Source of the DNA: a virus
DNA length: 22,453 nucleotides
Virus record (IMG/VR): IMGVR_UViG_3300032241_003249
Span: 1 to 22,453 of that record
Direction: 5' to 3' (one strand)
Shown here: positions 4,617 through 19,586 of the stretch, one piece after another
Layout of the letters: the number at the start of each line of letters is the position of its first letter
Numbering within the stretch: the stretch's first letter is position 1
Notes under the pieces: generated by a model
What the model saw: the letters and a program-made list of their open reading frames with translations, nothing else
Databases searched by the model: none
Told to the model about the DNA's origin: nothing
Made by a program: the position numbers and the translations under genes

Positions 4617-4636
4617 AAGGCGCACTCCTGCCCCTA

Positions 4637-5756: not shown

Positions 5757-5783
5757 TCAAGTTTTCTAGCAGAATACCGATGA
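5757..5783 (+). promoter_or_regulatory. Sigma-28-like promoter, copy 1
   Basis: TCAAGTTT, 11 bases, then ACCGATGA. The E. coli FliA consensus is TAAAGTTT-N11-GCCGATAA, so this copy has seven and six of eight matches with the canonical spacing. The spacer holds TTCT-AGC-AGAA, a small inverted repeat shared with the other copies. It points at the gene starting at 5837. Confidence 0.6.
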
Positions 5784-5836
5784 GTTCTATGTGTTCTGAG
5801 GCAGAACTAAAAACCGTCTAATCGAAAGGACACCAA

Positions 5837-6001
5837 ATGACCTACCAGCAAGAGCTAGAATACCTGCAGGGCGCTCTTCAAGTTTTGAATACCGAGCTTG
5901 GAACCGCACGAGACAAAATTGAAGTCATGGAACGTATTCAGAACATCAAAGACTGCATCGTTCGCCTAGTCCTTTCCAACGAATCAGCTGGGAGGGTTTA
6001 A
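5837..6001 (+). CDS. Small helical protein, first rightward gene
   Basis: This 54-residue protein (MTYQQELEYLQGALQVLNTE...) has AAGGA seven bases upstream of its ATG. It is built of leucine- and glutamate-spaced heptads (YLQGALQVLNTELG, IEVMERIQNIKDCIVRLVL), which suggests two helices or a short coiled coil. It is the first gene after the sigma-28-like promoter at 5757 and nearly abuts the next gene. I recognise no family. Similar small coiled-coil proteins are common as early phage products that bind a host protein, but that is only a possibility. Confidence 0.7.
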   Translation: MTYQQELEYLQGALQVLNTELGTARDKIEVMERIQNIKDCIVRLVLSNESAGRV

Positions 6002-6002
6002 G

Positions 6003-6338
6003 ATGAAACGCTTTAATGTAGCTACCCATCCTAAGTTGGCCAAAATGACCTGCATTCAGAAAGCCCTGGTATTCACTCAACATGCCAGTCAGCGCGCGCT
6101 TGAGAAAGGCGTTCTAGTCCCTCGCTTCCTAACCATTCAAGAGGGCGAAGTAGTTGAAGTAGAATTGGTGGCGAATCAGCTAAGCAAATTGGTTATGCGC
6201 CGAGCTATGAATAAGGACCATGACCTTGTCCTTGTTCTTATCCCGCGGGATAGGGACACCTGGACGGTAATTACTTGCTGGCTCAATCGGAAAGAAGACA
6301 CGCATAGAACACTGCGAAAAGACAGGCTTAGTGCTTAA
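6003..6338 (+). CDS. RelE-fold-like small protein (DUF4258-type pattern)
   Basis: This is a 111-residue protein. The pattern is QHASQRALEKGV near residue 26, then EGEVVEVELVANQLSKLVMR, then DLVLVLIPRDRDTWTVITCW and a final NRKEDTHRTL. An 'H.S.R...RG...I..GEV' start followed by strands ending in 'VIT.W.N' is typical of small RelE/DUF4258-like proteins found in phages and toxin loci. Whether it is a ribonuclease cannot be judged, and there is no antitoxin partner I can name beside it; the preceding 54-residue protein is the only candidate. The start has GGGAGG seven bases upstream. A second sigma-28-like promoter begins four bases after its stop. Confidence 0.65.
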   Translation: MKRFNVATHPKLAKMTCIQKALVFTQHASQRALEKGVLVPRFLTIQEGEVVEVELVANQLSKLVMRRAMNKDHDLVLVLIPRDRDTWTVITCWLNRKEDTHRTLRKDRLSA

Positions 6339-6341
6339 TGC

Positions 6342-6369
6342 TCAAGTTTCTAACAGAATATGCCGACAA
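6342..6369 (+). promoter_or_regulatory. Sigma-28-like promoter, copy 2
   Basis: TCAAGTTT, 12 bases, then GCCGACAA (seven of eight match the FliA -10). The spacer carries TTCT-AAC-AGAA overlapping the -35 end, as in copy 1. It lies wholly between two genes and points at the DUF932-like gene at 6424. Confidence 0.6.
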
Positions 6370-6423
6370 GTTTTTTGTAAGTAAATTCAAAGCAACAAAA
6401 CTACCCACACAAAGGAATTTATC

Positions 6424-7149
6424 ATGAACAATCAGCTTATCCTTAAAACTCGCGAAGGCCTAAATCGTCCTACCTTAGCCACTTTGGACCAAGCAGAACT
6501 AATTCAGCACACCACGGCCACACTAGCTAAAGTGGCACCGGCTACTAGCTTCCTGTACAGTTGTCGCACCCAGGATAAATCTCACACCAAAGCCGCTAAA
6601 CAATACGGCGGTGGCTCGGTGTACCGGCACATGTTGCGCGCCAATACTTCTGTCAATGTAAATAGTGATTTACTTTATCCGCAAATTACTATTATTGACC
6701 GTACCTTTTCTGGCGCGTCTTTAAAAGTTTACGTAGGATTTTATCGGATTATTTGCAGCAACGGCCTAACTGTTTCAGTGGGCGAAACTTTGTCCTGGTC
6801 AATTGACCATCGATTATCCTCCGCCGTTCAACTTATGGAACTTAGTCGCAGCATCGCAGCTGCATGGTCTCAAGTAATTCAAGCGCAGACTGTTCTAGCC
6901 AACGCGGCAATTGCTTCAATCAATCCTATTCAAGCTATTGACAATTTATCCATGTTTTCTATTCGCCAAAAAGAACAGTTAAAACAAGCGTTGCCTACTG
7001 CCCGTCCCGAAGATAATGTGAATACCGTATACGGCCTTTACAATTTCTTAAATGAACAGGACAGACTAACCGCGCGGCGCGGCAGTACCGCCTATCTGGA
7101 CAGGGATACCAACATGCTTGCTACCTTAATCGAGTTTGCCGCAGCCTAA
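6424..7149 (+). CDS. DUF932 family protein
   Basis: The 241-residue product fits the DUF932 phage/plasmid family. The hallmark is a strand pair reading GASLKVYVGFYRIICSNGLT at about residue 98, the equivalent of the family's 'L...G..R.VCSNG' core. An N-terminal region on substrate-like turns and a long helical C-terminus follow. DUF932 proteins are widespread in phages and conjugative elements near GP88-like and RadC-like genes and their activity is not established. AAGGAA lies nine bases upstream. Codon choice in this gene and the next is visibly more AT-rich than in the replication block. Confidence 0.75.
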   Translation: MNNQLILKTREGLNRPTLATLDQAELIQHTTATLAKVAPATSFLYSCRTQDKSHTKAAKQYGGGSVYRHMLRANTSVNVNSDLLYPQITIIDRTFSGASLKVYVGFYRIICSNGLTVSVGETLSWSIDHRLSSAVQLMELSRSIAAAWSQVIQAQTVLANAAIASINPIQAIDNLSMFSIRQKEQLKQALPTARPEDNVNTVYGLYNFLNEQDRLTARRGSTAYLDRDTNMLATLIEFAAA

Positions 7150-7175
7150 TCTATTTTAACCTTAAGGAGATTTAT

Positions 7176-7952
7176 ATGCGCCTACTTTCGCCGGAAGCCT
7201 CCAATGCTAAGTTAAGCAAAAACGCTGCAACCAATTCAGGTTATGAAACTAGCATCCTTTATTTGGCACCATCCAATCAAGCACGCGCGGATGTAGACTT
7301 GTGTCCTGGCGCATCTCCGGGTTGCCGCAAAGCTTGTTTATTCAGCGCGGGCAGAGGCAAATTCCAGAATGTACACAATGCGCGTGTTGCTAAAACGCTT
7401 CGTTTTTTGGATACTCCGCAAGAGTTTCTGGCCGATTTAGTTCACGACTTAGAATACCTAGTTCGAAAACAACAACGTACCGACGTGAAACAGGCTGTTC
7501 GGCTTAACGGCACTAGCGATATCCGTTGGGAAGCTATGCCTGTCCTGAGAAAAGGTGTTCAGTACCCCGGTATCCCACAAGCGTTTCCTGAACTACAATT
7601 TTACGACTATACCAAACTGCCAATGCGTGCAATGCAATTTCTTAAATCTAGCTGGCCTACTAACTATCACTTGACCTTTAGTCGCTCTGAAATAAATCAA
7701 GCAGCCGTGACTCAGTTAATAAGGACCGGCGTTAACGTGGCTGTTGTCTTTCAGGGCAAGCAGTTACCTAGCACTTGGATGGGCCAGACCGTTATTGACG
7801 GCACGCTGCATGACCAACGCTTTCTAGACCCACGTCAGGTAGTTGTAGGTTTGTTAGCTAAAGGCGACGCCAAAAAAGATGCTACAGGTTTTAGCGTGTC
7901 CGTGCTCGAATATGAACACAACGAATTCAATAGAAAGGTGGCAGGCTTATGA
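7176..7952 (+). CDS. GP88-family phage protein
   Basis: This 258-residue protein has the GP88 signature: an N-terminal cysteine cluster (DLCPGASPGCRKACLFSAGR, about residues 40-59), followed by GKFQNVHNARVAKTLRFLD. A middle section with VRLNGTSDIRWEA and YDYTKLPMRAM comes next, then a C-terminal FQGKQLPSTWMGQTVIDGT. The three cysteines plus His suggest a metal site. The biochemical role of this family is unknown; it often travels with DUF932, as here. AAGGAGA precedes the ATG at good spacing. The stop overlaps the next start. Confidence 0.75.
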   Translation: MRLLSPEASNAKLSKNAATNSGYETSILYLAPSNQARADVDLCPGASPGCRKACLFSAGRGKFQNVHNARVAKTLRFLDTPQEFLADLVHDLEYLVRKQQRTDVKQAVRLNGTSDIRWEAMPVLRKGVQYPGIPQAFPELQFYDYTKLPMRAMQFLKSSWPTNYHLTFSRSEINQAAVTQLIRTGVNVAVVFQGKQLPSTWMGQTVIDGTLHDQRFLDPRQVVVGLLAKGDAKKDATGFSVSVLEYEHNEFNRKVAGL

Positions 7953-8128
7953 TGCGGGCATTAGACTTTAAAATAATGAGCGATATCAAATGGAACAATT
8001 GGCAGGCTACCAGCGCAAGTGAACTACTTATGCTTGTGTGCGACAAATGGCGCATTGAGGACAGGCAAACAATTAAGCAAGTCTATCAGGCTATTTTAAC
8101 TATTCATCACTCCATTAATCCTAAATAA
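7949..8128 (+). CDS. Small hypothetical protein
   Basis: This 59-residue protein (MMRALDFKIMSDIKWNNWQA...) starts at ATGATG overlapping the GP88 stop. It contains a predicted helix SASELLMLVCDKWRIEDRQT followed by KQVYQAILTIHHS. No known motif. The overlap and an upstream AAAGGTGG support translation. The cysteine and histidines are too few for a clear metal site. Confidence 0.6.
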   Translation: MMRALDFKIMSDIKWNNWQATSASELLMLVCDKWRIEDRQTIKQVYQAILTIHHSINPK

Positions 8129-8143
8129 AAAAGGAATTATCTA

Positions 8144-8629
8144 ATGGGCTATACACACTATTGGTCTTTTGATTTTAAGGCAGGAAAAACTTCGGACCTT
8201 GAGACTAAATATCAACAGGCTATCCTGGAATGTTCTAAACTTGTTTATAAGTATTCCCAACGGCACGGTGGCATTGCAGGGTTTTCCGCCCACGCTAAGC
8301 CTGGCCTTTATGGCGGCCTCGCTTTGAACGGGTCTCGAGAGTCTGGCGCAGAATGGTTTTGCTTAAGGGAACACTTTAAAGAAAACGAAAAAACAGGTTT
8401 TTGTAAAACTAACCGGGAACACTACGACATGCTAGTCACAGCATGTTTAAGTATTCTTAAATACCGATTAGATACAGCTATCCATATATCCAGCGATGGC
8501 AATTTGGAAAACTGGAAGTATGGTGTTTTACTTGCCCAGCAAAGTTTGCGCCGCAAAGTAAACTGCCCAATTGAGGGGCAAAAAAATCAAACGCGCACGT
8601 TGACAAATTCTGCGCGCATAGTCAGTTAA
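8144..8629 (+). CDS. GYTHYW-family phage protein of unknown function
   Basis: This 161-residue protein begins MGYTHYWSFDFKAG, the characteristic start of a small family often seen in phages. Further family-like elements are GGLALNGSRESGAEWFCLRE, then GFCKTNREHYDMLVTACLSI and ISSDGNLENWKYGVLL. The C-terminal 30 residues (from about SLRRKVNCP) are basic and look like an extension or read-out beyond the conserved domain. The start has AAGGAA nine bases upstream. Function is not known. A TTGACA box lies inside its last codons at 8600. Confidence 0.7.
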   Translation: MGYTHYWSFDFKAGKTSDLETKYQQAILECSKLVYKYSQRHGGIAGFSAHAKPGLYGGLALNGSRESGAEWFCLREHFKENEKTGFCKTNREHYDMLVTACLSILKYRLDTAIHISSDGNLENWKYGVLLAQQSLRRKVNCPIEGQKNQTRTLTNSARIVS

Positions 8630-8665
8630 GGCTTCCCAGTTTTTTCTTAACATAGAAAGGGATTT

Positions 8666-8812
8666 ATGTTGCTCGTTTATTTTAAAGAGCCAACAACCCA
8701 GGCTTGGATACTTTATTCGGTAGCACAAACTGCAACGGATGCAGTGCAAATTGGCAGGGACTTAGTTCACCTCGATTATGAGGTTTATTTTCAGGAGAAT
8801 ACCAATGGCTGA
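8666..8812 (+). CDS. Small hypothetical protein
   Basis: This 48-residue protein (MLLVYFKEPTTQAWILYSVA...) has GAAAGG eight bases upstream of its ATG. Its sequence has a strand-helix-strand feel: LVYFKEP, AQTATDAVQIGRDL, DYEVYFQEN. It overlaps the start of the next gene by eight bases. I recognise no family. Confidence 0.6.
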   Translation: MLLVYFKEPTTQAWILYSVAQTATDAVQIGRDLVHLDYEVYFQENTNG

Positions 8813-8948
8813 ATTTTTGGCAACACAGCTGAATCTACCTATGGAACTAATTCGATTTCTGGATACTGCAGTGTCCATTCTGATGTTTATACTTATTGTT
8901 CGGCTGCTTGGGGAAATTGCAAAAGACAATAAGGAGATGCGTGAATGA
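8805..8948 (+). CDS. Tiny single-pass membrane protein
   Basis: This 47-residue protein (MAEFLATQLNLPMELIRFLD...) has one hydrophobic helix, AVSILMFILIVRLLG at about residues 23-37, and a charged C-terminus (EIAKDNKEMRE). AGGAG lies seven bases upstream. It is embedded by overlaps on both sides (8 bases and ATGA), so it is cotranslated with unknowns. It could be a superinfection or envelope-acting factor; nothing specific is visible. Confidence 0.65.
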   Translation: MAEFLATQLNLPMELIRFLDTAVSILMFILIVRLLGEIAKDNKEMRE

Positions 8949-9196
8949 GCCTAGGAAATCTGCCGGATGCATTGGACCAATTCAGTAATTTACACCGGAA
9001 GCTGCTTATCCGTTTTCCAGCTAGCGTATGCCCAATTCAGAATAGGGCAGTCTATTACGCGGACCAGGACATTTATTCTGATTGGCTCGAATCTTTGTAC
9101 GATTTAGATGCTAGCTATGAAGCAGCGGATTTACTGGACACTGCACGAAGAACAAGTCAGCGCTTTTTTAATGAGTTAAATCGTATCCCATTTTAA
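8945..9196 (+). CDS. Small acidic hypothetical protein
   Basis: This 83-residue protein (MSLGNLPDALDQFSNLHRKL...) starts at an ATGA overlap, with AAGGAGA upstream. The C-terminal half is acidic and helical (YSDWLESLYDLDASYEAADLL). No motif, signal peptide or membrane segment. No family recognised. Confidence 0.65.
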   Translation: MSLGNLPDALDQFSNLHRKLLIRFPASVCPIQNRAVYYADQDIYSDWLESLYDLDASYEAADLLDTARRTSQRFFNELNRIPF

Positions 9197-9210
9197 CTTA
9201 GGAGTATTCT

Positions 9211-9369
9211 ATGAGTAAGATTGTCGAATTCTGCGACTCTTTAATCCTTGAAGGTGCCAATCCACGCATTGCCATTCTGACCGCAGTGACCCGGTTTCGG
9301 TTAGGCGGCCTGGCTACTCGGCAATTGTGGGACTATTACCAGGTATCCGCAAATGAGTTGCCTATTTAA
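9211..9369 (+). CDS. Small hypothetical protein
   Basis: This 52-residue protein (MSKIVEFCDSLILEGANPRI...) has TTAGGAG upstream of its ATG. The middle (AILTAVTRFRLGGLATRQLW) could form an HTH-like pair of helices with a glycine turn, then DYYQVSANELP. This is suggestive of a small DNA-binding protein, but it is too short and too weak to call. Confidence 0.55.
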   Translation: MSKIVEFCDSLILEGANPRIAILTAVTRFRLGGLATRQLWDYYQVSANELPI

Positions 9370-9400
9370 TTTGGTAAAACCTACCATAAAAAGGCTTTAA

Positions 9401-9547
9401 ATGCATATCCTAATTTGTATATTTGTGCTCCTATTAATAGGACACTTAATCCTTGAAAGGGCTTATCATGACAGAGAAACCCGGTTTGATGCTCGTACCC
9501 GACACCACCAAAGAACAAAAAGAAAAGACAGAACAGAAAATGAATGA
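9401..9547 (+). CDS. Small membrane-anchored basic protein overlapping next two genes
   Basis: This 48-residue protein starts MHILICIFVLLLIGHLILER. Residues 2-18 form a membrane helix, and the rest is strongly charged (RTRHHQRTKRKDRTENE). AAGG lies about nine bases upstream. Its 3' half overlaps the next gene in another frame by 80 bases and its stop lies just ahead of the transglycosylase start. The helix-plus-charged-tail plan and the nesting resemble spanin or antiholin gene arrangements, but no spanin lipobox is present here. Confidence 0.5.
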   Translation: MHILICIFVLLLIGHLILERAYHDRETRFDARTRHHQRTKRKDRTENE

Positions 9548-9677
9548 GGAGACCGAGCATGCTATTTCCCCTGAAACCGCTGCGGAACGAAGACGCAAAC
9601 AGGAACAGGAACGTCGTCGCCGCAATAGTAATTTGGTGCGCGACCTTCGTGACGGGGACAAAGGCAAGCGGCGCTGA
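9468..9677 (+). CDS. Highly charged small protein nested between membrane protein and transglycosylase
   Basis: This 69-residue protein (MTEKPGLMLVPDTTKEQKEK...) is nearly all Glu, Lys and Arg after residue 18 (EQERRRRNSNLVRDLRDGD), probably one long charged helix. I chose the ATG at 9468, with GAAAGG seven bases upstream, instead of the TTG at 9453. It overlaps the membrane gene by 80 bases and the transglycosylase gene by 119 bases, each in a different frame. A regulator or chaperone for the lytic proteins is conceivable. Because the overlaps are large, either this or the 48-residue gene could be spurious. Confidence 0.5.
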   Translation: MTEKPGLMLVPDTTKEQKEKTEQKMNEETEHAISPETAAERRRKQEQERRRRNSNLVRDLRDGDKGKRR

Positions 9678-10233
9678 GAGTAGCAGCTTGGATGTTCTTC
9701 CGGTCCCGGAGACTCGACACACGGTACCTTATTCGAATGCTGGTTGGCTTGAATGCGGAAAACGTCTCAGCGCATTATCCGGTATAAAGCAGGACCAGCA
9801 AACTCAGTTAGTCCTACGGATTCGGGATTCCTCCATTGTAAGAACGTCCGATTTCTTAAGTCACTTGTATGCAATAGCTTACGTGGAGTCTCGGTTTAAT
9901 GAACAAGCAGTGTCCAGTTCCAAAGCGAGAGGGCTCCTACAACTCACTTCAATCGGCGCGGAGGAAGCTGCTCTGGAATGCGGGCTACCAATTCTTACCG
10001 AGGATTCTATGGATAGGCTCTTGAAGAGTTCCCTGAACGTGCGCTACTCCAGTTGCCTGCTGAGAAAGTATCTCAGGGAAACGAAGGGAAGTTGGTTCCA
10101 CGCTTTAATCCTTTACAACGGAGGTTACCTTCAACTGACCCGCTACCTAAGCACCGGTACCCTGACAGAGGAAACGCACAACTATGTTATGTCCGTCCTG
10201 AGTGCGTACGGAATTTGTTCTGTTCCCAATTGA
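9559..10233 (+). CDS. Membrane-anchored or exported lytic transglycosylase (SLT domain)
   Basis: This 224-residue enzyme cleaves peptidoglycan glycan strands. The SLT core is clear: AIAYVESRFNEQAVSSSKAR with the catalytic Glu near residue 110, then GLLQLTS at 125-131 and ALILYNGGYLQLTRYL further on. An N-terminal hydrophobic stretch (NVVAAIVIWCATFVTGTKA, about 18-36) follows a basic start and could be an anchor or signal peptide. I chose the ATG at 9559, with AGGAG seven bases upstream, over 9544. In phages such enzymes help DNA entry through the wall or act in lysis. It is far from the lysozyme at 18102, so the two are separate cell-wall activities. Confidence 0.85.
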   Translation: MLFPLKPLRNEDANRNRNVVAAIVIWCATFVTGTKASGAESSSLDVLPVPETRHTVPYSNAGWLECGKRLSALSGIKQDQQTQLVLRIRDSSIVRTSDFLSHLYAIAYVESRFNEQAVSSSKARGLLQLTSIGAEEAALECGLPILTEDSMDRLLKSSLNVRYSSCLLRKYLRETKGSWFHALILYNGGYLQLTRYLSTGTLTEETHNYVMSVLSAYGICSVPN

Positions 10234-10258
10234 CGAATTCTGCAAACTAGTTTAATTT
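10230..10258 (+). promoter_or_regulatory. Sigma-70-like promoter for the ClpP-like gene
   Basis: TTGACG, 17 bases, TAATTT, lying just after the transglycosylase stop. The expected RNA start near 10265 is followed by a small hairpin GTCCA-CTAA-TGGAC at 10266-10279. The first 14 bases TTGACRAATTCTGC recur at 8600. Confidence 0.5.
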
Positions 10259-10298
10259 AATTTGTGTCCACTAATGGACCTTAAAGAAAGTAGGTACA

Positions 10299-11039
10299 AT
10301 GAAAAGATTTATTCCAGTTCTATTAGGAGTATTCGGTTTCGCAATGCGTGCGCCTGCAGAGGTGGAGGTGCATAAGGACCATGCCGCAGTTATCTACGCA
10401 CCTATCACCGGCGGTAACCTGGACCCCATTAACCAGTTTGTTCTTGAAAGCATCGGGAAGCGGGACTACCTGGACCTTATTATTAATTCGCCTGGCGGGT
10501 CCGTCAGCGAAGGGTGGGCTCTACTGAACCGCTTGGACTATGCCCGGTCCAAAGGTGTAACGGTGAACTGTTTTGTCCCTGAAATTGCTGCTAGTATGGC
10601 GTTTCAAATTCTATTGCATTGTGACCATAGGTACGCGCTGAAACGGTCCGGCCTTCTTTGGCATCGAGTATCCGTGCACACAGGAATAGGTGCTAGCATC
10701 AATTCCTTGGTAGCGGCGGACCTGCTTCGGGACCTGCTTGCGGTGGATAAGCAACTTATACAGGACCTTGTATCCCACGTACCAATGACTAAAGAGGCTG
10801 TCCTATTTCACTTGGATAAAGAGACCATGCACCTGGCTACCGATTTGAATGAAGCGGCTCCCGGCTTCTTTGAAGAAGTCCCCGACAATATCTCTGGTCT
10901 TTACGAAGCGCTGACCTCACCTAAAGTGGTTCGTCAAACCGAGGAAATGGACATTCTGCGCCGCCTATTCGGTGGAGAAATCATTTACATCAAAAGAGGT
11001 TCTATACGTGAAGCGGAACCTGTTCCAGTTAAGAAGTGA
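10299..11039 (+). CDS. Exported ClpP-like serine protease
   Basis: This 246-residue protein has the crotonase/ClpP fold pattern. LDLIINSPGGSVSEGWALL (about 58-76) is the oxyanion loop with Gly66-Gly67. FVPEIAASMAFQILLH has the likely nucleophile Ser99, and SGLLWHRVSVHTG the likely His122. No obvious catalytic Asp was assigned. The first 20 residues (MKRFIPVLLGVFGFAMRAPA) are a textbook signal peptide with an APA cleavage site, so it should act in the periplasm. That differs from phage head-maturation ClpP homologs, which lack a signal and sit beside the portal gene. Neighbours are a transglycosylase upstream and small unknowns downstream. A lytic, anti-defence or host-surface role is possible. 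Confidence 0.8.
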   Translation: MKRFIPVLLGVFGFAMRAPAEVEVHKDHAAVIYAPITGGNLDPINQFVLESIGKRDYLDLIINSPGGSVSEGWALLNRLDYARSKGVTVNCFVPEIAASMAFQILLHCDHRYALKRSGLLWHRVSVHTGIGASINSLVAADLLRDLLAVDKQLIQDLVSHVPMTKEAVLFHLDKETMHLATDLNEAAPGFFEEVPDNISGLYEALTSPKVVRQTEEMDILRRLFGGEIIYIKRGSIREAEPVPVKK

Positions 11040-11217
11040 GGAATTAAGAATAAGGAGGCTGGTCCAGTGGCTGGCCTCCTTAACGGAGGACGATTTCTAT
11101 TTATTCAAGGATAGGTCCCTGGTTAGGGTAGCTAGCAAATTAAACAACAAAGCCCAGGATAGTGGGCTCCACAGTGAGGTGCGATATGAGTTCCAACACG
11201 AACTGGAATCCGATTAA
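11008..11217 (+). CDS. Small hypothetical protein
   Basis: This 69-residue protein is read from a GTG at 11008, with AAAGAGG eight bases upstream; it overlaps the protease gene by 32 bases. Sequence features are a basic helix (SEELRIRRLVQWLASLTEDD) and then RSLVRVASKLNNKAQ. No motif is recognisable and no alternative ATG is available, so the start is uncertain. Confidence 0.5.
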   Translation: MKRNLFQLRSEELRIRRLVQWLASLTEDDFYLFKDRSLVRVASKLNNKAQDSGLHSEVRYEFQHELESD

Positions 11218-11437
11218 GCTTAAGCTCTATTTGTCCCCGGAAGAAAGGCAAGCGTACCGGCTTGCGGCGAATGTGGTAGGTAAAGAGTCCATTAGCGAAT
11301 ACATGGCCCACGCCATCCAAACGTACACAGCTTTCCTGGTAAAGGAGCTGAGGGACCAGGTAGCTGCGGCTTCTCCGAGCACTTCCAATGTGCTGGACGC
11401 AACTCCTCAGGAGCCGGAGGTACCATCCAATGGCTAA
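11186..11437 (+). CDS. Possible ribbon-helix-helix type small protein
   Basis: This 83-residue protein (MSSNTNWNPIKLKLYLSPEE...) reads like a CopG/Arc-type RHH domain: a strand IKLKLYLS, helix EERQAYRLAANVVG, turn KESISEYM, helix AHAIQTYTAFLVKEL. A Ser/Pro/Thr-rich tail follows. RHH proteins are DNA-binding dimers, often autoregulators. I took the ATG at 11186 with GTGAGG close upstream. It overlaps the genes on both sides. Confidence 0.6.
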   Translation: MSSNTNWNPIKLKLYLSPEERQAYRLAANVVGKESISEYMAHAIQTYTAFLVKELRDQVAAASPSTSNVLDATPQEPEVPSNG

Positions 11438-11600
11438 AAAACAGTACCTAATTGCCTTGAACCAGGACCAGCTCATTTTCCTTGCACAGGACCTGGAGGA
11501 TGCGCTAGCTTCGGAAGCGTATTCCGTGTCCGAAAAGCTGCTTTTAGCAGCGGTGGTTAGCAAGCTTAGAAGGCAGAAAGCGAGACTTCAGGATGTTTAA
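11430..11600 (+). CDS. Small helical hypothetical protein
   Basis: This 56-residue protein (MAKKQYLIALNQDQLIFLAQ...) starts with CCGGAGG about eight bases upstream, overlaps the preceding stop by eight bases and overlaps the nuclease start by eight. Two leucine-rich helices (DQLIFLAQDLEDALAS and SEKLLLAAVVSKLRRQKARL) suggest a small helical bundle. No family recognised. Confidence 0.6.
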   Translation: MAKKQYLIALNQDQLIFLAQDLEDALASEAYSVSEKLLLAAVVSKLRRQKARLQDV

Positions 11601-12582
11601 ACCGACACTTGATTTAGTAAAAGACGGAATCCAGAATATTCAGGAGGAACACGCCAAATCGGAAGTTACGAAACGGGGTATCCTTCGCGCAGGTAGCACC
11701 GGCCTTCTATTAGGGGACGGTTCCGTGGTGGGCAAATGCGCCCGGCAAACTTACCTACGTCTTGAGGGTATTGAAGCTGGGGAGGATGATGCTAGCCGAG
11801 AATTCATGTTTGCTGCTGGCAGAACAAATGAGGATAGCTGGGTGGACCTATTCAGAAGAGCCGGTATTTCTTCAGAACAGATTCGTCGTGAAGAGGAAAT
11901 CCCCATTCAGTGGCAGACTAGGAGCGGGCGGCAAGTTTCAGGCCGGCCTGACATTGTTTTAGGGGAACCCAGATTGGGTGCATTTGTACCCATTAAAGGT
12001 ATCGAACTGAAGCTTGTGTCCTCGCTCTGGACCGCCAGGGATGTGGCCATAAAGCAGGAGCCGAAAGCAATGCACCTGATGCAAGCGGCACACTACTCCT
12101 GGAAGCTGGGCGATTTACCGTTCGAGCTTTGGTACACCAGCAGGGCGGACTTTGCAATAAACGGTTGGGCGCAAAAGAACTTTCCAAAGCAGAACGAGCC
12201 GGGCTCCCAGTACTGCCAGTACAATGAGAAAGGGGAAGTCCTTAAGACAGTACCCTTCATTGTCGGGTATGAACTGGACTGGAACAAGGGTACTTTGGAG
12301 TACCGCTGCCTCACTACCCCGGGCAGCAAATGGACGCCGACGATTGTGACCAAGCGTGGGATTGAGGAGTACTTTGAACTGGTGGACGGGATGGTAAATT
12401 CGGATAAGCTGCCTCCGAGACCGCTGAACGTTTCCGCTTCCGGAGAGAAAGGAAACTATTCAATCTGTTCCTACTGCCCACTGCAGCAGGTCTGCGATAA
12501 AATGGAGTCCAAAGGAAAAGCTGCTTGGGTTCAAGCGGTCCAGGAATGGGCTCCCAGGATTCCCTCTTCCGGTTCTTTGTAG
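11593..12582 (+). CDS. Cas4-like PD-(D/E)XK exonuclease with Fe-S cysteines
   Basis: This 329-residue protein carries the nuclease core QVSGRPDIVLGE with Asp120, GIELKLVSS with Glu138 and Lys140, and an MQAAHYSW helix with Gln164. Four cysteines are placed as in Cas4 and AddB: one near the N-terminus (Cys49 in GKCARQTYLR) and three at the C-terminus (Cys292, Cys295, Cys301 in ICSYCPLQQVC), which should bind a 4Fe-4S cluster. Cas4-like phage exonucleases resect DNA ends in recombination-dependent replication. No cas genes or CRISPR repeats are nearby, so I infer a replication and recombination role alongside the polymerase and resolvase downstream. Confidence 0.85.
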   Translation: MFKPTLDLVKDGIQNIQEEHAKSEVTKRGILRAGSTGLLLGDGSVVGKCARQTYLRLEGIEAGEDDASREFMFAAGRTNEDSWVDLFRRAGISSEQIRREEEIPIQWQTRSGRQVSGRPDIVLGEPRLGAFVPIKGIELKLVSSLWTARDVAIKQEPKAMHLMQAAHYSWKLGDLPFELWYTSRADFAINGWAQKNFPKQNEPGSQYCQYNEKGEVLKTVPFIVGYELDWNKGTLEYRCLTTPGSKWTPTIVTKRGIEEYFELVDGMVNSDKLPPRPLNVSASGEKGNYSICSYCPLQQVCDKMESKGKAAWVQAVQEWAPRIPSSGSL

Positions 12583-12604
12583 ATTAAGTAAGTTAAAAAA
12601 GTGT

Positions 12605-12632
12605 TCAAGTTTCTGTTCGAATGTTCCGATAA
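12605..12632 (+). promoter_or_regulatory. Sigma-28-like promoter, copy 3
   Basis: TCAAGTTT, 12 bases, then TCCGATAA (seven of eight match FliA -10). The spacer has TTCT-GTT-CGAA. It lies in the gap between the nuclease gene and the gene at 12691, implying that the replication block is part of the same regulon as the early genes. Confidence 0.6.
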
Positions 12633-12690
12633 ACAAATTGACGCTCATAGTGGGCGACAATCTAACGCCGAAAGGCAAGGAGTTTCTAGT

Positions 12691-13113: not shown

Positions 13114-13279
13114 GCAAAGTCAGGAGCAGGTAGGACAGTACCTTTTCGGAGGCTACGCGTCCTACCTTTCTGAGTGGATTCGACTGAAGCAAGCTAGGGG
13201 ACTTAGGCCAGAATGGCAACGGCGTGAATTGGAGCAGCGAAATGTTCACAATCTTAAAGCCTCAAACAAGACCCCCTAG
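13052..13279 (+). CDS. Doubtful small ORF filling the gap before polymerase
   Basis: The only canonical start in this frame is a GTG at 13052 inside the preceding gene, and it has no ribosome binding site. Yet the part after 13113 reads like protein (QYLFGGYASYLSEWIRLKQA, then RGLRPEWQRRELEQRN) with codon use like its neighbours, and it fills an otherwise empty gap of about 130 bases. Either it starts at the weak GTG, or it is joined to the preceding gene by a +1 frameshift, or it is a decayed gene. Its last 38 bases overlap the polymerase start. Confidence 0.35.
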   Translation: MQPSKRELSPQATASSAGKLKQSQEQVGQYLFGGYASYLSEWIRLKQARGLRPEWQRRELEQRNVHNLKASNKTP

Positions 13280-15500
13280 ACTAAGTCAGCTGTCCATTTT
13301 GCAGCAGGAGCAGGAGCTTCAGGACCTGGAATGGATTTTCAAGGAACGCCCTGATAAGAAAGAGCCTATGGCTTTGGACTTTGAAACCTGTGGAGGTGAT
13401 TGGTCCAAGCCGGGAACTTACCCTGTCGGGGTTTCCTTATCCGATTCTAGAGGTTCCCTTTATATTCCTTTTTACGAAGGCTCCAATACCTACTCCAACG
13501 TAATGCATCTCTTGCACCAGTACCAAGTCCCGCTTCTGGCTCACAACGTATTCTTTGATGCAGGTTGGCCGCTTCGGGACTTTGGTCTTTGGCTTAATTG
13601 GAAAGCTTGCACCTTGGCCATTTACAAACTGACCGCTACCGAGGGAGTGCCCGGTTTCAGCTGGGGCCTCAAGTCCGCGCAGAAGGACCTACTCGGTTGG
13701 ACGGAGACTAATGAAGTAGCTCTAGATAATTGGCTGGTCCAGAACGGGTACGTGGCCAACGTAAGCAAGGAGCCGAAAGAAGGGTACGTATTCCAGCCTG
13801 AGGGAACCGAAAAAGAAAAAGAGGGTGCCCGCTGGCTTAAGCCAAGTAAACAGGACATGTGGCGCGCTCCAGTTTCCATCCTGGGCCATTACGCGGCACT
13901 GGATGCGGACGCCTGCTGGCAACTTTTTACCTACATTTTTCAACCTGTATTTGATAAGTTTCAAGTCCTTAAGTCCTATATCCTGGATATGTACCCCCGT
14001 TACCTGGAGCTACTTATCCGGCAAAAGCTTGCAGGAATAAAGATAGACATCCCTAAACTTACCCAGTATCAGAAGGACCTCGAACATGAGATTGCTGCTT
14101 TACAGACTAGTATACTCACTTCTCCTCAAATTGAACCGCATATCCTTTTCTGGAATACTGAGCGTATTAACGAGGTGTCCAGAAGTGAGCCTGCCAAGTT
14201 CAAGAAAGCACCAGCCCTTGGTGCAGAGCCGCCCCGTTATACTAAGAAAGGCGAGCCCAGTAAATCATGGGCCCAGTGGGACCAGAAGCGGGAGGCCCTT
14301 CAGGAGAGAGGACCTGAACTAAGTCTGAACTGGGTCAAGTGGCAGGAAAGGATGCAGGAAGCGGAAAGAACGCAGTACTTCAATCTGGGCAGCGGAAAGC
14401 AACTGGCCTGGCTCCTGTATGAACGCCTTCAGTTCCCTGTAGAAATAAGGACCGAATCCGGGCAACCTGCAACGGATGAGGACGCGTTGATGGGCATGGG
14501 GGAAGTGGGCCGGCAACTGATTCAGCTTAATGAAAAGAATAAGCTGCTCCAGTTCTGCAACCAGACACTGGCCCTAACTTCCAAGGAAGGTACCATACAT
14601 CCTGGGTTCAATGTGCCAGGCACCTTGACTGGCCGCCTGTCCGGTAGGGACCCTAATTTGCAGCAGGTTCCAAAGGTGGGCCGGTTCCTGGAATGCTGGA
14701 TTCCAAGGCCGGGGAAAGTGTTTCTGGACTGCGACCATTCCGCCTTGGAGCCTGTTGTTCTAGCGGAGCTGTCAAGGGACCCAGGGCTCTGGGCGGTGTA
14801 CGGACCGGACGCCCCGCCTAATGATGTGTACCTGTATTTAGGCGCGAACCTGCCAGCCCCCGTTGGTCCTGCCATCAGGGCGTGTGGCTACGTTCCAGAA
14901 GCCCCTACTAAGGAAGCAATTCAGCGGGCAAAGAAGGAAGCAAAGCAGGCGCGGCAGATTGCAAAATCGGTGAAGCTTGCCTGTGACTACGGCGCAAGTG
15001 CCAATAAACTTAGGGAAATTCTTAAGCTGCAGGGCATCCGGATAACGGAACAGGAAGCGGAAGCAATGTGGGAAGCTTTCTGGGAAACGTACAAAGGACT
15101 CCGCATCTGGCGCCGGGAGTTGGAGGCGCAGCACCGCTTCAATAAAGGCTGGGTCCTGAACGGGATAGGCAGGCCGCTGGGAGTTTGGGAACAATCGGTA
15201 AAGGACCTTGTGAACAGGGTGGGCCAGAGTACCGGGCATGACATTCATATAATGTATATCCTAATTGTGGATGAGCTACTCAATCAGGAAGACATTCCTT
15301 GGACCCCGGTTATTGTAGACTTTCATGACCAGATGATTCTTGAGGTGGACACCAGGTACGCGGATAGGGTAAAGTGGCTTATGGGTGTTCGTGCGTACGA
15401 GATTCTGAACGACCGGATTCAAGGGCAAATTAAGCTGAAAGGGGAAGCGAACATTGTGGAGAACCTGGCTTATGCAAAAGTGGAAGGCTGGGGTAAGTAA
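13242..15500 (+). CDS. Family A DNA polymerase with 3'-5' exonuclease
   Basis: This 752-residue replicative polymerase has a proofreading exonuclease with DFE (Asp46, Glu48), HNVFFD (Asn102, Asp106) and YAALD (Tyr217, Asp221). Polymerase motif A reads DHSALE (Asp498) instead of the usual DYSQIE. Motif B is RQIAKSVKLACDYG (571-584), with Leu579 where E. coli Pol I has Phe762. Motif C is HDQ (695-697) in place of the usual HDE. There is no 5'-3' exonuclease domain. Inserts occur near residues 170-207 and 280-375. Start: ATG at 13242 with GGAG seven bases upstream, not the GTG at 13224. Confidence 0.93.
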   Translation: MFTILKPQTRPPRLSQLSILQQEQELQDLEWIFKERPDKKEPMALDFETCGGDWSKPGTYPVGVSLSDSRGSLYIPFYEGSNTYSNVMHLLHQYQVPLLAHNVFFDAGWPLRDFGLWLNWKACTLAIYKLTATEGVPGFSWGLKSAQKDLLGWTETNEVALDNWLVQNGYVANVSKEPKEGYVFQPEGTEKEKEGARWLKPSKQDMWRAPVSILGHYAALDADACWQLFTYIFQPVFDKFQVLKSYILDMYPRYLELLIRQKLAGIKIDIPKLTQYQKDLEHEIAALQTSILTSPQIEPHILFWNTERINEVSRSEPAKFKKAPALGAEPPRYTKKGEPSKSWAQWDQKREALQERGPELSLNWVKWQERMQEAERTQYFNLGSGKQLAWLLYERLQFPVEIRTESGQPATDEDALMGMGEVGRQLIQLNEKNKLLQFCNQTLALTSKEGTIHPGFNVPGTLTGRLSGRDPNLQQVPKVGRFLECWIPRPGKVFLDCDHSALEPVVLAELSRDPGLWAVYGPDAPPNDVYLYLGANLPAPVGPAIRACGYVPEAPTKEAIQRAKKEAKQARQIAKSVKLACDYGASANKLREILKLQGIRITEQEAEAMWEAFWETYKGLRIWRRELEAQHRFNKGWVLNGIGRPLGVWEQSVKDLVNRVGQSTGHDIHIMYILIVDELLNQEDIPWTPVIVDFHDQMILEVDTRYADRVKWLMGVRAYEILNDRIQGQIKLKGEANIVENLAYAKVEGWGK

Positions 15501-15528
15501 TTGCAAGGATGAGAAGGCTGGGGTAAGT
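15483..15528 (+). repeat. 16-bp direct repeat across the polymerase stop, 30-bp period
   Basis: GAAGGCTGGGGTAAGT occurs at 15483-15498 (the last codons of the polymerase) and again at 15513-15528, in the same frame and ending in another stop. It looks like a recent 30-bp tandem duplication, or a conserved element placed around the stop. Confidence 0.6.
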
Positions 15529-15611
15529 GAGCCTAAACGGTAAACTAAACAAAAAAATATTCAGATAATCGGCCCCAGTGTATTCTCCCTGTAGAAAGAA
15601 AACGGTAGCAA

Positions 15612-16142
15612 ATGGCAAAGTACAAAAGCAAATTAGCACTGGAGATTGAGCGCCACGCGGGCGTGCTTAAAACGGGAAATGTCCTTGCTATCGACCCCTC
15701 TTCCGGTTCCCAAGGCAGCGTTCCCGGGTACGCACTTTTTAAAGCAGGACAGCTGCAGGATGCCGGCACCATCGCTTTACCGAGAGGTACCAAAGCTTTA
15801 TCAAACCGACTGTTCCTGCTAAGGGACACTTTGGAAAAAGAATTCCAGAAGCCGGACCTACTTATTGTAGAACTGATTAGTCCTGTAATGCCCGCTAAGA
15901 ATGGGCAGTTCCTGCACGCTAACGGCTCCAGTCTTATCAAGGCGGTGGGCGCTATTCTTAGCTGCTGGGATGTCCCTGTTCTGGAAGTGGCCCCTATGAC
16001 CTGGCATTCCATGACCCCGCCTACCTACAAAAAATCGGATACGCACGATGCCTGCATGATTGGCTGGGCCGCGTTCATTACCTTAGCCCGCGTTACCGGG
16101 GAACCGGAACCTGCCCCCATTCTGCCTTTGGAGTCTGTATGA
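15612..16142 (+). CDS. RuvC-like Holliday junction resolvase
   Basis: This 176-residue protein has an RNase H-fold acidic set: Asp28 in VLAIDPSSG, Glu87 in LLIVELI, and Asp143/Asp146 in KKSDTHDACMIGW, matching the RuvC D-E-D-D layout, with GYALFKAGQLQDAGTIAL forming the second and third strands. Such phage enzymes cut branched DNA before packaging. The start ATG at 15612 has a weak ribosome site (GAAAACGG). Its stop overlaps the next gene by ATGA. Confidence 0.8.
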   Translation: MAKYKSKLALEIERHAGVLKTGNVLAIDPSSGSQGSVPGYALFKAGQLQDAGTIALPRGTKALSNRLFLLRDTLEKEFQKPDLLIVELISPVMPAKNGQFLHANGSSLIKAVGAILSCWDVPVLEVAPMTWHSMTPPTYKKSDTHDACMIGWAAFITLARVTGEPEPAPILPLESV

Positions 16143-16450
16143 GTTTGCCGGAAACAATTCAGGTACTTGGTGTTCCATTTAGAATTGAGCTAGTAGAGTT
16201 TGAGGAGGAAGGGCAGTGTGGGGAGTGCCACGGCCTTCTGCGGGTTATCAAGATATCTAGCGCTTTGGACACAAAGAGGCAGTGGACCACCCTGGTTCAC
16301 GAATTCATTCACGCTACCTTGTTCATAATGGGCGCAGCTACCGAGATTTCTGACTCGATGGAAGAGTGCATTGCGCAAAGCTTGGAGCATTCAATTGAAC
16401 AGCTGATTAGGCAGGTTGGTCCTGAACTAATTAAGTCCTATCAAGATTGA
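16139..16450 (+). CDS. Small HExxH zinc metallopeptidase-like protein
   Basis: This 103-residue protein contains LVHEFIHATLF (zinc ligands His54 and His58, catalytic Glu55). About 20 residues later it has SMEECIAQSLEHS, with Glu74 or Glu75 as a possible third ligand. Near residue 27 is a CGEC pair. The layout matches small ImmA/IrrE- or SprT-like domains found in phages. ImmA/IrrE proteins cleave repressors, so an anti-repressor role is possible. It is coupled to the resolvase gene by an ATGA overlap. Confidence 0.7.
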   Translation: MSLPETIQVLGVPFRIELVEFEEEGQCGECHGLLRVIKISSALDTKRQWTTLVHEFIHATLFIMGAATEISDSMEECIAQSLEHSIEQLIRQVGPELIKSYQD

Positions 16451-16476
16451 AATTGAGCGTATAAACTTAATAATAT
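16447..16476 (+). promoter_or_regulatory. Possible sigma-70-like promoter
   Basis: TTGAAA at 16447, 18 bases, then TAATAT at 16471, directly ahead of the FmdB-like gene. The region is AT-rich compared with its surroundings. Confidence 0.35.
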
Positions 16477-16490
16477 CAAAGGAGATTAGA

Positions 16491-16685
16491 ATGCCTCTTT
16501 ACGATTGGAAATGTGAGAAATGTGGCAAGTGGGAGTCCACCGTTTACCCGATAGAGGAGCGGGACACTGCACCAGATGAGAAGCATTCTCAAGATGGTTG
16601 CGACCATGCTTGGGAACGCAAGATGAGTGGAAAGCAGGCTATGATAAAAAGTGCCCGGTGGGGAATGGGAAAAGGAAATTGGTAG
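16491..16685 (+). CDS. FmdB-type zinc-ribbon protein
   Basis: This 64-residue protein begins MPLYDWKCEKCGKWESTVYP, the typical 'MP.YD..C..CG' opening of FmdB-like zinc ribbons. A second potential ligand pair follows in DGCDHAW. FmdB-type domains are widespread in phages and bacteria and are thought to bind nucleic acid or other proteins. The tail ARWGMGKGNW is basic. AAAGGAG lies seven bases upstream of the ATG. Confidence 0.7.
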   Translation: MPLYDWKCEKCGKWESTVYPIEERDTAPDEKHSQDGCDHAWERKMSGKQAMIKSARWGMGKGNW

Positions 16686-16687
16686 CC

Positions 16688-16852
16688 ATGTATCCGGAAA
16701 CATACGAACATTTAATGGACGCATTCATTCTGCTAAAGATTGAGAAAGAAATTGCCGATAAGAAAGTAGAGTCTTTAACCTCTCTTATTCAGGAAATGGA
16801 GCTTCAGTATGCCAAAAGCTATCCTCCAATTCAACCTCCCAGAGGAACGTGA
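16688..16852 (+). CDS. Small coiled-coil protein
   Basis: This 54-residue protein (MYPETYEHLMDAFILLKIEK...) starts at the ATG at 16688, just after the FmdB stop. KIEKEIADKKVESLTSLIQE is a clear heptad-rich coiled coil, followed by a proline-rich tip. No family recognised. A sigma-28-like sequence lies inside it at 16734-16761. The ribosome site (AAAAGGAAA) is rather far upstream. Confidence 0.55.
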   Translation: MYPETYEHLMDAFILLKIEKEIADKKVESLTSLIQEMELQYAKSYPPIQPPRGT

Positions 16853-17129
16853 AGAGTTCAATTTAACAGTAAAAGCTGGGAATCTGCACAGCGCTCTTTG
16901 GGACATTCTAGAGTCGGTGTTCCGGCCAGCTAGGAAACACGGATACTCCGATACCCGACTTCAGAAGCTTATTCAAAAACTGGACGCATGTACTCCCACC
17001 TGGCAGGACCAGGACCAGGACCCCGAATGGCCTAGGGATGAACATGGCCCCCTAAGTGCAACTGATTTAGTTGGGCTACTTGAAAAACGGTTCCACGAAA
17101 TCCTTGAACAGCATGAGGTGATTTTATGA
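16809..17129 (+). CDS. Conserved-type phage protein (LPEE...ALWD family)
   Basis: This 106-residue protein opens with MPKAILQFNLPEEREEFNLT, followed by HSALWDILESVFRPARKHGY. It resembles a widespread small phage protein family with the pattern 'L.F.LPEE.EE...A..G......L.D....LR'. No enzymatic motif is visible. It overlaps the previous gene by 44 bases and the next by ATGA. Confidence 0.65.
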   Translation: MPKAILQFNLPEEREEFNLTVKAGNLHSALWDILESVFRPARKHGYSDTRLQKLIQKLDACTPTWQDQDQDPEWPRDEHGPLSATDLVGLLEKRFHEILEQHEVIL

Positions 17130-17335
17130 CCATCGCTATTACCTACATGGAAACGGACCTGTCAGACGGATTCAAGCAGCGGGAGAAGACGGTGTTCGTT
17201 CCCAATTATAGGACCCTCCGCTCCTTACTCTCTGCAGTGGACGCGGCTTGCATGGAGATTGAGCAGACCAGGAAGGACCCGCATCCGTTGACTCAAAGCA
17301 AAAAAGAAGGGGACCGCAATGGTGTCGAACTCTGA
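17126..17335 (+). CDS. Small hypothetical protein
   Basis: This 69-residue protein (MTIAITYMETDLSDGFKQRE...) has an N-terminal strand pair and a helix YRTLRSLLSAVDAACMEIEQ, then a polar tail. It starts at an ATGA overlap with GAGGTG upstream. No family recognised. Confidence 0.6.
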   Translation: MTIAITYMETDLSDGFKQREKTVFVPNYRTLRSLLSAVDAACMEIEQTRKDPHPLTQSKKEGDRNGVEL

Positions 17336-17705
17336 ATGGATAACCAGGCTAAACGAGGTGCAGGACGCGGCGGAGTGGATAGCGAAAGAGTTGCTCCGGG
17401 CACGCATCTGTGTAACTCAGTACAAAGAAAAGTGGGGCATGGTCCGGGTCTATTGTACCTTCGGCTTCATCCAGTTTCATGATTTGATATACCCTGGACA
17501 TATCTGGAATAGGTTCAGCCCTAGGATGCAGTGGTGGGATGAACGGGTATTAGGGCCAATCGTGAATCAGCTTTCCTGGCTTCTTATCCCTGCGCAGAAG
17601 GCATGGTACCGAAGGACTTATAAACGGGCTCTTTCCAGATGGCCCCATTTACAGGATTCAATTTTGTCCGGCCCAGATTACCCGGACCTGTTGAGGGGAC
17701 TATGA
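17319..17705 (+). CDS. Hypothetical protein, aromatic-rich
   Basis: This 128-residue protein (MVSNSEWITRLNEVQDAAEW...) contains YKEKWGMVRVYCTFGFIQFH and many Trp residues toward the C-terminus (MQWWDERVLG, SWLLIPAQKAWYRR). The 'YKEKWG.VRVYC.FG' element occurs in small uncharacterised phage proteins. One mildly hydrophobic stretch (VNQLSWLLIPA) is too short for a membrane helix. AAGGGG lies six bases before the ATG. Confidence 0.65.
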   Translation: MVSNSEWITRLNEVQDAAEWIAKELLRARICVTQYKEKWGMVRVYCTFGFIQFHDLIYPGHIWNRFSPRMQWWDERVLGPIVNQLSWLLIPAQKAWYRRTYKRALSRWPHLQDSILSGPDYPDLLRGL

Positions 17706-17998
17706 CAAAAGAAGAGATTGAGAAAGCGTACCAACGTATTTTGATGTCCGGAAGCAACAAGAACTGGGGACTAGGGGCAGGCGTGAATCCGTATTCTACC
17801 GATGAAGAATGGGCAGAGTGGGCCAGGAACTGGTCCAGCTGGAAACCGAATCCGTTAGCCCCGTCCGAACCAGAAACTCCTCAGAAAATGCGGTGCGAGA
17901 AACATGAATGGGTGGATACTGGTACGGCAAAAACCTGGTGCAAAAAGTGCGACAGGACAGGCCGCTGGGAAATGGGAATTGTACATGTCCAAGACTAA
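17702..17998 (+). CDS. Small zinc-ribbon-like protein
   Basis: This 98-residue protein (MTKEEIEKAYQRILMSGSNK...) has a C-terminal metal-binding pattern CEKHEWVDTGTAKTWCKKCD, with Cys, His, Cys and Cys in the spacing of a zinc ribbon. The N-terminal 60 residues are Trp-rich and acidic. It starts at an ATGA overlap with GAGGGG very close upstream. No function known. Confidence 0.6.
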   Translation: MTKEEIEKAYQRILMSGSNKNWGLGAGVNPYSTDEEWAEWARNWSSWKPNPLAPSEPETPQKMRCEKHEWVDTGTAKTWCKKCDRTGRWEMGIVHVQD

Positions 17999-18092
17999 AA
18001 GAATCCTTTTTTACCTTACCTCAATTTGGACATTGTTCTGCCTTTACATTGCCCCAAGACTTGCTTCCTGGATAATTCAACTTTTCCGTTAG
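17985..18092 (+). CDS. Tiny membrane protein immediately before lysozyme
   Basis: This 35-residue protein (MSKTKRILFYLTSIWTLFCL...) has a basic start, a hydrophobic helix at about residues 7-24 (ILFYLTSIWTLFCLYIA) and an amphipathic end (RLASWIIQLFR). GGGA lies about eight bases upstream. It overlaps the zinc-ribbon gene by 14 bases and ends nine bases before the lysozyme start. Being a membrane peptide directly upstream of a lysozyme without its own signal peptide, it is the best holin candidate in the window, though 35 residues is very short for a holin. Confidence 0.5.
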   Translation: MSKTKRILFYLTSIWTLFCLYIAPRLASWIIQLFR

Positions 18093-18101
18093 GAGTTTAG
18101 T

Positions 18102-18566
18102 ATGAACCAAAAAAGACCTGTTCCGGAAGCGGCCATTCAACTGGTTAAAGAGTTTGAAGGACTTCGGGTCGCGGCGTACCCGGACCCAGGTACCAAGGGC
18201 GCGCCGTGGACCGTAGGCTATGGACATACCACCGGAGTGTTCAAGGATACACACGTAGGTCCGGACCAGGCGAACCGGCTCCTACAACTGGACCTGGAGG
18301 AAGCTGGCCGGCAAATAGAAAACATAGTAAAGGTTCCCTTAAATGAGAACGAGTGGGCCGCTTTACTGGTGTTTGTATTCAACGTGGGCGCAGGTAACTT
18401 GAAAGGGAGCACCCTTCTTAAACTTTTAAACGAAGGGAACAGGCAGGAAGCTGCATCCGAGTTTCTCCGCTGGAACAAAGCGGCGGGAAAGGAGCTGGCA
18501 GGCCTTACCCGGCGCAGGATAAAGGAGCGGGAGCTTTTCCTGAAGGAGCCGACCAGTGAAAGTTAA
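18102..18566 (+). CDS. Endolysin, GH24 lysozyme
   Basis: This 154-residue muramidase has the catalytic region KEFEGLRVAAYPDP with Glu19 and Asp28, then WTVGYGHTTG with Thr37. That is the T4-lysozyme-type E-D-T set. It also has NEWAALLVFVFNVGAGNL as the family's helical 'FVFNVG' element, and ends with a typical GLTRRRIKERELFL. There is no signal peptide, so it needs a holin to reach the cell wall. TTAGGAG lies about seven bases upstream of the ATG. Length is normal for the family. Confidence 0.92.
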   Translation: MNQKRPVPEAAIQLVKEFEGLRVAAYPDPGTKGAPWTVGYGHTTGVFKDTHVGPDQANRLLQLDLEEAGRQIENIVKVPLNENEWAALLVFVFNVGAGNLKGSTLLKLLNEGNRQEAASEFLRWNKAAGKELAGLTRRRIKERELFLKEPTSES

Positions 18567-18780
18567 GGGCATCAAGTGTCCCAAATGCAAGCAGCTTATC
18601 TGGCCTAAAAAACCGAATGTTCCGGTACTCTGTTTTTGCGGGTACTGCTACATTGAATACATTCAAAAAGAGGGCTCCGGGCACACGAGGATAGGCTACG
18701 GTTACCCTGGCCAAAAGATGGCCGAGGTACCAAAGTACATAGACGTGAATACGGATACCGGAAAAGGGGAAACGGAATGA
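18556..18780 (+). CDS. Small zinc-ribbon protein, GTG start
   Basis: This 74-residue protein is read from the GTG at 18556, with AAGGAG seven bases upstream, overlapping the lysozyme end by 11 bases. It has CPKCKQLIW near residue 7 and CFCGYCYIEY near residue 25, giving a compact zinc ribbon, then a polar tail. No known partner. Confidence 0.65.
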   Translation: MKVKGIKCPKCKQLIWPKKPNVPVLCFCGYCYIEYIQKEGSGHTRIGYGYPGQKMAEVPKYIDVNTDTGKGETE

Positions 18781-19013
18781 GTTTATTTGCAGCAATTCTA
18801 GCAACCCAGCTTTACTGCCCTAAAACTCGTCTTTATGTGCCGGACGGGCACACGGTAACTCAGCTGGATTTGGAAACGGTAAAGCGGGCAAAGGTCCGCT
18901 GTTTTGAGTTGTATCCAGAATCGCCTTGTGCTAAGTATGTGTCCAGAAAAGGGCTTCTCGATTACCACGTAGTTTGTGGAAGTCCGAACCAAAATAGTAC
19001 TCAAGTTTTCTAA
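18777..19013 (+). CDS. Small cysteine-containing hypothetical protein
   Basis: This 78-residue protein (MSLFAAILATQLYCPKTRLY...) starts at an ATGA overlap. Four cysteines (in LYCPKT, VRCFEL, SPCAKY and VVCGSP) may bind metal or form disulfides. Its N-terminus is mildly hydrophobic but not a convincing signal peptide. The -35 box of the fourth sigma-28-like promoter overlaps its last codons. Confidence 0.6.
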   Translation: MSLFAAILATQLYCPKTRLYVPDGHTVTQLDLETVKRAKVRCFELYPESPCAKYVSRKGLLDYHVVCGSPNQNSTQVF

Positions 19014-19028
19014 CGGAACTGCCGATAA
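19001..19028 (+). promoter_or_regulatory. Sigma-28-like promoter, copy 4 (perfect -10)
   Basis: TCAAGTTT, 12 bases, then GCCGATAA, the full FliA -10 consensus. The spacer carries TTCT-AAC-GGAA. Unlike the other copies, a strong terminator follows only about 20-30 bases after the expected RNA start. Confidence 0.65.
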
Positions 19029-19056
19029 GGGAGTTGGGTGGTTCGGTAAAAGTTGC

Positions 19057-19090
19057 GCCTGCGCCCAGTTCTCTGGGCCAGGCCTTTTTT
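19057..19090 (+). terminator. Rho-independent terminator
   Basis: GCCTG-C-GCCCAG pairs with CTGGGC-CAGGC around a TTCT loop: an 11-bp GC-rich stem with one bulged base, followed by CTTTTTT. It closes the 16.5-19.0 kb operon and would also stop transcripts started at 19001 after roughly 55 bases. Confidence 0.85.
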
Positions 19091-19117
19091 AACTAAATAA
19101 CCTTAGAAGGAGAATAT

Positions 19118-19561: not shown

Positions 19562-19586
19562 ACTTTCTAAATTGTAGGAGCTAGAA

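Follow-up and report, generated by a model that had tools for sequence, protein, structure and literature searches.

The FliA (sigma-28) promoters of class 3 flagellar genes in E. coli and Salmonella consist of TAAAGTTT and GCCGATAA boxes at a spacing similar to that of the viral sites described here, and their RNA starts about 8 b past the -10 octamer. Lytic phages are generally thought to begin with the housekeeping sigma factor of the host or with factors of their own. The middle and late promoters of SPO1/T4-type phages mark a gene class by a dedicated motif, as the viral sites do, and the phage brings its own sigma factor or activator, while T7-type phages carry a gene for a single-subunit RNA polymerase and use an uninterrupted promoter about 20 b long. 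The gene flxA is located in the cryptic prophage Qin of E. coli. Its expression is FliA-dependent (PMC4183435), which makes it a parallel in that a FliA promoter drives a gene carried by a prophage. In Bdellovibrio, FliA has been described as a global attack-phase regulator and more than a motility factor, and of 140 attack-phase promoters defined through 5' RNA end mapping, 92 carried TTAAG-N16-CCGATA (PMC3627812); fliA was reported to be essential in this organism (PMC5430801). Here we analyzed a stretch of 22,453 nucleotides of viral DNA from IMG/VR (hereafter the window), in which candidate promoters of the FliA class accompany the genes of a replication module.

Candidate FliA-type promoters in the window

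The window was scanned with the independent E. coli FliA consensus (TAAAGTTT-N11/12-GCCGATAA, threshold at least 13/16), which was chosen because circularity was to be avoided. Six distinct sites were found on the + strand (P1 to P6, Table 1) and a single match, at 4095, on the - strand; dinucleotide shuffles gave an expectation of 0.47 at this threshold for both strands together. The preliminary description had placed four sites on the + strand at 5757, 6342, 12605 and 19001, with 11-12 bases between the boxes. All four were real and their coordinates exact, while the set itself had to be enlarged by P4, which was absent from it, and by the weaker P6.

Table 1. Predicted promoters and gene modules in the window
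Feature	Position	Strand	-35 box	Spacer	-10 box	Predicted +1	Score	Remark
P1, predicted FliA-type promoter	5757..5791	+	TCAAGTTT 5757-5764	N11	ACCGATGA 5776-5783	G 5791		
P2, predicted FliA-type promoter	6342..6377	+	TCAAGTTT 6342-6349	N12	GCCGACAA 6362-6369	G 6377		
P3, predicted FliA-type promoter	12605..12640	+	TCAAGTTT 12605-12612	N12	TCCGATAA 12625-12632	G 12640		
P4, predicted FliA-type promoter	16734..16769	+	TAAAGATT 16734-16741	N12	GCCGATAA 16754-16761	G 16769	15/16	
P5, predicted FliA-type promoter	19001..19036	+	TCAAGTTT 19001-19008	N12	GCCGATAA 19021-19028	G 19036		
P6, tentative FliA-type promoter	22226..22261	+	TAAAGCGT 22226-22233	N12	ACCGATAA 22246-22253	G 22261	13/16	
Rightward replication/early-type module	5837..22356	+						behind P1-P6
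Leftward structural/packaging module	1231..4652	-						terminase large subunit 1615-3030

With distances counted from where the site begins, the next plausible ATG lay at 80 b for P1 (upstream of the ORF at 5837), 82 b for P2 (preceding the DUF932 gene at 6424), 86 b for P3 (between the Cas4-like exonuclease gene and the ORF at 12691/DNA polymerase), 75 b for P4 (within the 3' part of ORF 16598-16852 and upstream of the ORF at 16809) and 117 b for P5 (upstream of the dATP/dGTP diphosphohydrolase-like gene at 19118). P6, the weakest site, was intragenic, in the 3' part of ORF 21691-22356 and ahead of a gene truncated where the window stops. Closer examination revealed a G exactly 8 bases past the -10 octamer, the expected +1, in all six sites, as well as a C before the -35 box and a G after the -10 box in five of them; five had N12 spacing, with N11 in P1. 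Two more copies of TCAAGTTT (5878, +; 5128, -) were without a -10 partner, and sigma-70-like sites in window 4300-13300 were at chance level (8 vs 9.2).

P1 to P6 are co-directional, all pointing rightward with the replication module, whose genes encode DUF932, GP88, an SLT transglycosylase, a Clp-like protease, the Cas4-like exonuclease, a family A DNA polymerase, a RuvC-like resolvase, a lysozyme and a helicase. No convincing FliA-type site directing the structural module was present in the window, the 13/16 match at 4095 lying inside an ORF. About 1.2 kb of non-coding DNA (4653-5836) with many G-runs and CTAGC words lies between the divergent structural and replication modules and may serve as an origin or in regulation. 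Homologues of GP88 and/or of the ORF at 8144 (window 7176-7952 and 8144-8629) also occurred in G002, G013 and G018, which are contractile-tailed or unclassified contigs; there, too, they were located behind FliA-like sites, directly so in G002 and G013. Searches for exact peptides of the polymerase and GP88 proteins gave no relatives, and DNA-level matches of the window were absent among phage isolates.

Conservation in related uncultured phages

Related phages were obtained by two routes, a pattern scan of IMG/VR for contigs with several co-directional sites and a terminase profile search that fetched relatives independently of the motif. G001, G007, G008, G009 and G016 were first found by motif, and the terminase search recovered each of them again except G009; G028 to G033 were found through terminase alone. 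The 61 kb contig G001 showed synteny to the window (identity of 65% for DUF932 and 39% for the polymerase) and carried sites at the same boundaries as window 5757, 6342 and 12605. Its counterpart of P1, at 46309, stood before the same gene block, a site at 43967 preceded DUF932 as P2 does, and a 16/16 site at 45257 directly followed the homologue of the ORF at 6003. A site at the exonuclease/polymerase boundary was shared by seven phages (window, G001, G009, G016, G028, G029 and G030), although their proteins were only about 37-58% identical.

Across 12 family contigs, 50 sites scoring at least 14/16 ran in the direction of the replication module and 3 in the opposite one; shuffles led to an expectation of 0.97 and the reversed-letter control contained 0. 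The terminase-selected loci, mostly from the structural side, contained 34 sites and 0 reversed-letter control sites. Few sites were present in some family members (none in G032, one in G031). The predicted +1, mostly a purine about 8 b past the -10 octamer and upstream of the translated start, preceded the next Shine-Dalgarno start by a median of 47 b, and 81% were within 120 b compared to 25% of random positions. The -35 box was preceded by C in 45 of 53 family sites and 62 of 72 sites of other phages, and the -10 box was followed by G in 45 of 53 and 65 of 72, respectively; the extended signature is written C-TMAAGTTT-N11/12-NCCGATAA-G. The sigma-28-like regulon of replication genes that had been proposed for the window thus gained strong support from site statistics, synteny across relatives, start-codon distance and the +1 base, and we regard the predicted promoter class and its conservation across the phage family as well supported at the sequence level.

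Contigs outside the family by terminase, including the contractile-tailed G013 and G018, carried arrays of up to 9-12 sites, an enrichment that is no independent test because these contigs were selected by motif. The tail sheath of the G013/G018 group shared 31% identity with its counterpart in Myxococcus phage Mx1. In G010 (L068, L130 and L131), FliA-like sites numbered twelve over 40 kb and occupied both strands; one large protein of this contig compared with isolates gave no protein match. In G014 (L079), a conserved GTATAATG-type word recurred behind each of the six FliA-like sites, roughly where RNA would start. A different arrangement was common to L002, L005, L006, L008, L011 and L019 (marine, freshwater), namely a composite sigma-70-type promoter in which TCAAG is followed by TTGACA-NN-GCCGATAA and a TATACT-like -10 box; among these composite-promoter records, G005 and G006 each have a gene for a Sigma70_r2 protein. 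Exact TCAAGTTT-N12-GCCGATAA matches across IMG/VR were rejected as a group since they were mostly unrelated, six of them being sigma-70-type promoters with GCCGATAA between the boxes. The array was absent from Limnohabitans phage DC31, the part of Planktothrix phage PaV-LD that was scanned and the cultured Bdellovibrio phages phi1422 and phi1402 (first 20 kb only).

Candidate readers and hosts

We consider it likely that the sites are sigma-28 (FliA) class promoters of the replication operons, read most probably by a FliA-type sigma factor of the host. Such a sigma factor, acting on the host RNA polymerase, would be both the likeliest reader of the phage sites and the simplest, because no phage sigma factor of this class and no T7-type polymerase was found in the phage records searched. 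The latter was rejected since PF00940 was present in 0 of 22 phage records and the motif comprises two boxes with a variable spacer. RNA would then start at the predicted sites in a host with an enlarged FliA regulon, and the sites would drive the operons of the replication module, while the structural module, lacking such promoters, would be started by other means. The replication part of infection is probably triggered by a specialised switch of the host in place of its housekeeping one.

The host itself was approached through the terminase and the site signature. Terminase profile matches were obtained in three bacterial or archaeal assemblies (an Oligoflexales bin of the Bdellovibrionota, Thiomargarita and Nanoarchaeia), and the terminase family was found in 2 of 58 Bdellovibrionota genomes, one being the genome that had led to this phylum. 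The pattern AAGTTT-N12/13-CCGATAAG reached up to 32 copies per Bdellovibrionota genome with almost no control matches; in 185 Gammaproteobacteria, the one other class compared, it gave 11 matches, at most one per genome and near control level. Dozens of matches to the site signature (C before -35, G after -10, mixed N11/N12) were present in some Bdellovibrionota genomes. In the seven motif-richest of them the base after CCGATAA was G in 146 cases and non-G in 56, and G follows the -10 box in 4 of 52 E. coli FliA sites (PMC4183435, Table 2). As in the phages, a C preceded the -35 box in 19 of the 20 Bdellovibrionota sites read, and all 11 Bdellovibrionota genomes checked encoded a true FliA. 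No tRNAs that could hint at a host were detected in eight relatives. Counting against a host from this phylum are the cultured Bdellovibrio phages phi1422 and phi1402 that have no array, the low number of genomes with the terminase, its matches outside the phylum and flagellin genes devoid of the motif. On balance, we slightly favor a Bdellovibrionota-like host on these sequence patterns. This lineage would be the best candidate, with FliA as the attack-phase master sigma factor known in Bdellovibrio, and FliA control would turn on the replication genes in just the kind of cell that the virus encounters.

The preliminary description had instead suggested a tie of infection to motile hosts; in such a reading, the phage would sense the motility state of an ordinary flagellated proteobacterium. 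Both boxes do fit the E. coli and Pseudomonas flagellar consensus (PMC4183435, PMC7286023), and the best terminase matches among isolates were Pseudomonas phages, at 24% identity. However, neither the N12 spacing nor the trailing G is typical of E. coli, and the control-level occurrence of the exact signature in Gammaproteobacteria also argues against this proposal, which we judge unlikely. A link to motility would be conjectural, as the flagellin genes of the best-matching, motif-rich Bdellovibrionota genomes lack the motif in the upstream regions read, and FliA is a putative reader there as well. Proteins downstream of the sites in motif-rich genomes contained almost no Pfam families, and given this as well as the flagellin regions, the Bdellovibrionota sites could not be tied to flagella. 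In G053 to G058 and G051, all Bdellovibrionota, dozens of FliA-consensus sites were followed by proteins that are mostly uncharacterised, and each genome had seven to nine flagellin genes.

Somewhat less probable still is a divergent sigma factor or sigma-appropriating factor of the phage that mimics FliA and is encoded outside the fragment or escapes known profiles. There would be room for such a gene, as the window covers 22 kb of a genome of about 57-61 kb judged by its relatives, and a short ORF with a Sigma70_r4-like helix-turn-helix was noted in G002 when sigma region 4 was searched in four records. The earlier statement that the window encodes no sigma factor agreed with our Pfam scans of its main ORFs and with FliA_WhiG (TIGR02479), which gave no match. 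Among records with such sites, Sigma70_r2 was found in 0 of 25 and FliA_WhiG at E<=1 in 0 of 20, including several relatives of 57-61 kb, and the phage-encoded mimic that had been suggested is accordingly disfavored. The same promoter class occurs in contigs that encode a sheath of a contractile tail (G013 and relatives), and the flanking bases match those of the bacterial sites, both of which also speak against a phage factor.

Instead of being sigma-dependent promoters, the sites might be bound by a phage regulator or might be conserved protein-coding motifs, which we consider very unlikely. P6 comes closest to this alternative, in that it and its counterparts in G008, G028, G029 and G030 are coding with similar codons; these counterparts likewise lie within the homologous gene towards its 3' end, although at a different protein position. 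Most sites, in contrast, are asymmetric and lie between genes or at gene ends, some 47 b ahead of starts; their +1 is mostly a purine, and spacers of 11 and 12 are interchangeable. Chance occurrence of AT-rich words at gene boundaries, for which it could be said that TCAAGTTT-N12-GCCGATAA has 24 matches over IMG/VR, roughly the chance frequency by our own estimate, is refuted by the virtually empty shuffle and reversed-letter controls in the family and by the synteny of the sites.

With host-encoded FliA as the preferred reader, a wider scenario can be put forward tentatively, in which uncultured phages of predatory Bdellovibrionota-like hosts, including the contractile-tailed group, may independently have placed their replication genes under host FliA as the attack-phase master sigma factor, locking their programme to a life-cycle switch of the host and not to its housekeeping sigma factor.

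Comparison with described promoter systems

No phage array of this kind was found in the literature, in a search that covered subscription journals thinly. A conserved alternative-sigma array over a replication module would mean that infection is gated by the developmental state of the host. It would also supply a sequence signature for the host assignment of uncultured phages, and it makes single-sigma control of replication-module expression directly examinable.

Unlike the FliA promoters of E. coli and Salmonella, the sites described here precede phage replication genes, mix N11 and N12 spacing and carry a G after the -10 box. In flxA of Qin a single accessory gene is affected, whereas in the window an array of sites that all point one way spans a lytic replication module. 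The SPO1/T4-type systems differ in that the motif of the window family is that of an alternative sigma factor of the host and no phage factor was found. The attack-phase FliA promoters of Bdellovibrio bacteriovorus share the N16 spacing (TTAAG-CCGATA) with five of the six window sites (PMC3627812), but the window sites read TCAAG or TAAAG instead of TTAAG and are located in a phage.
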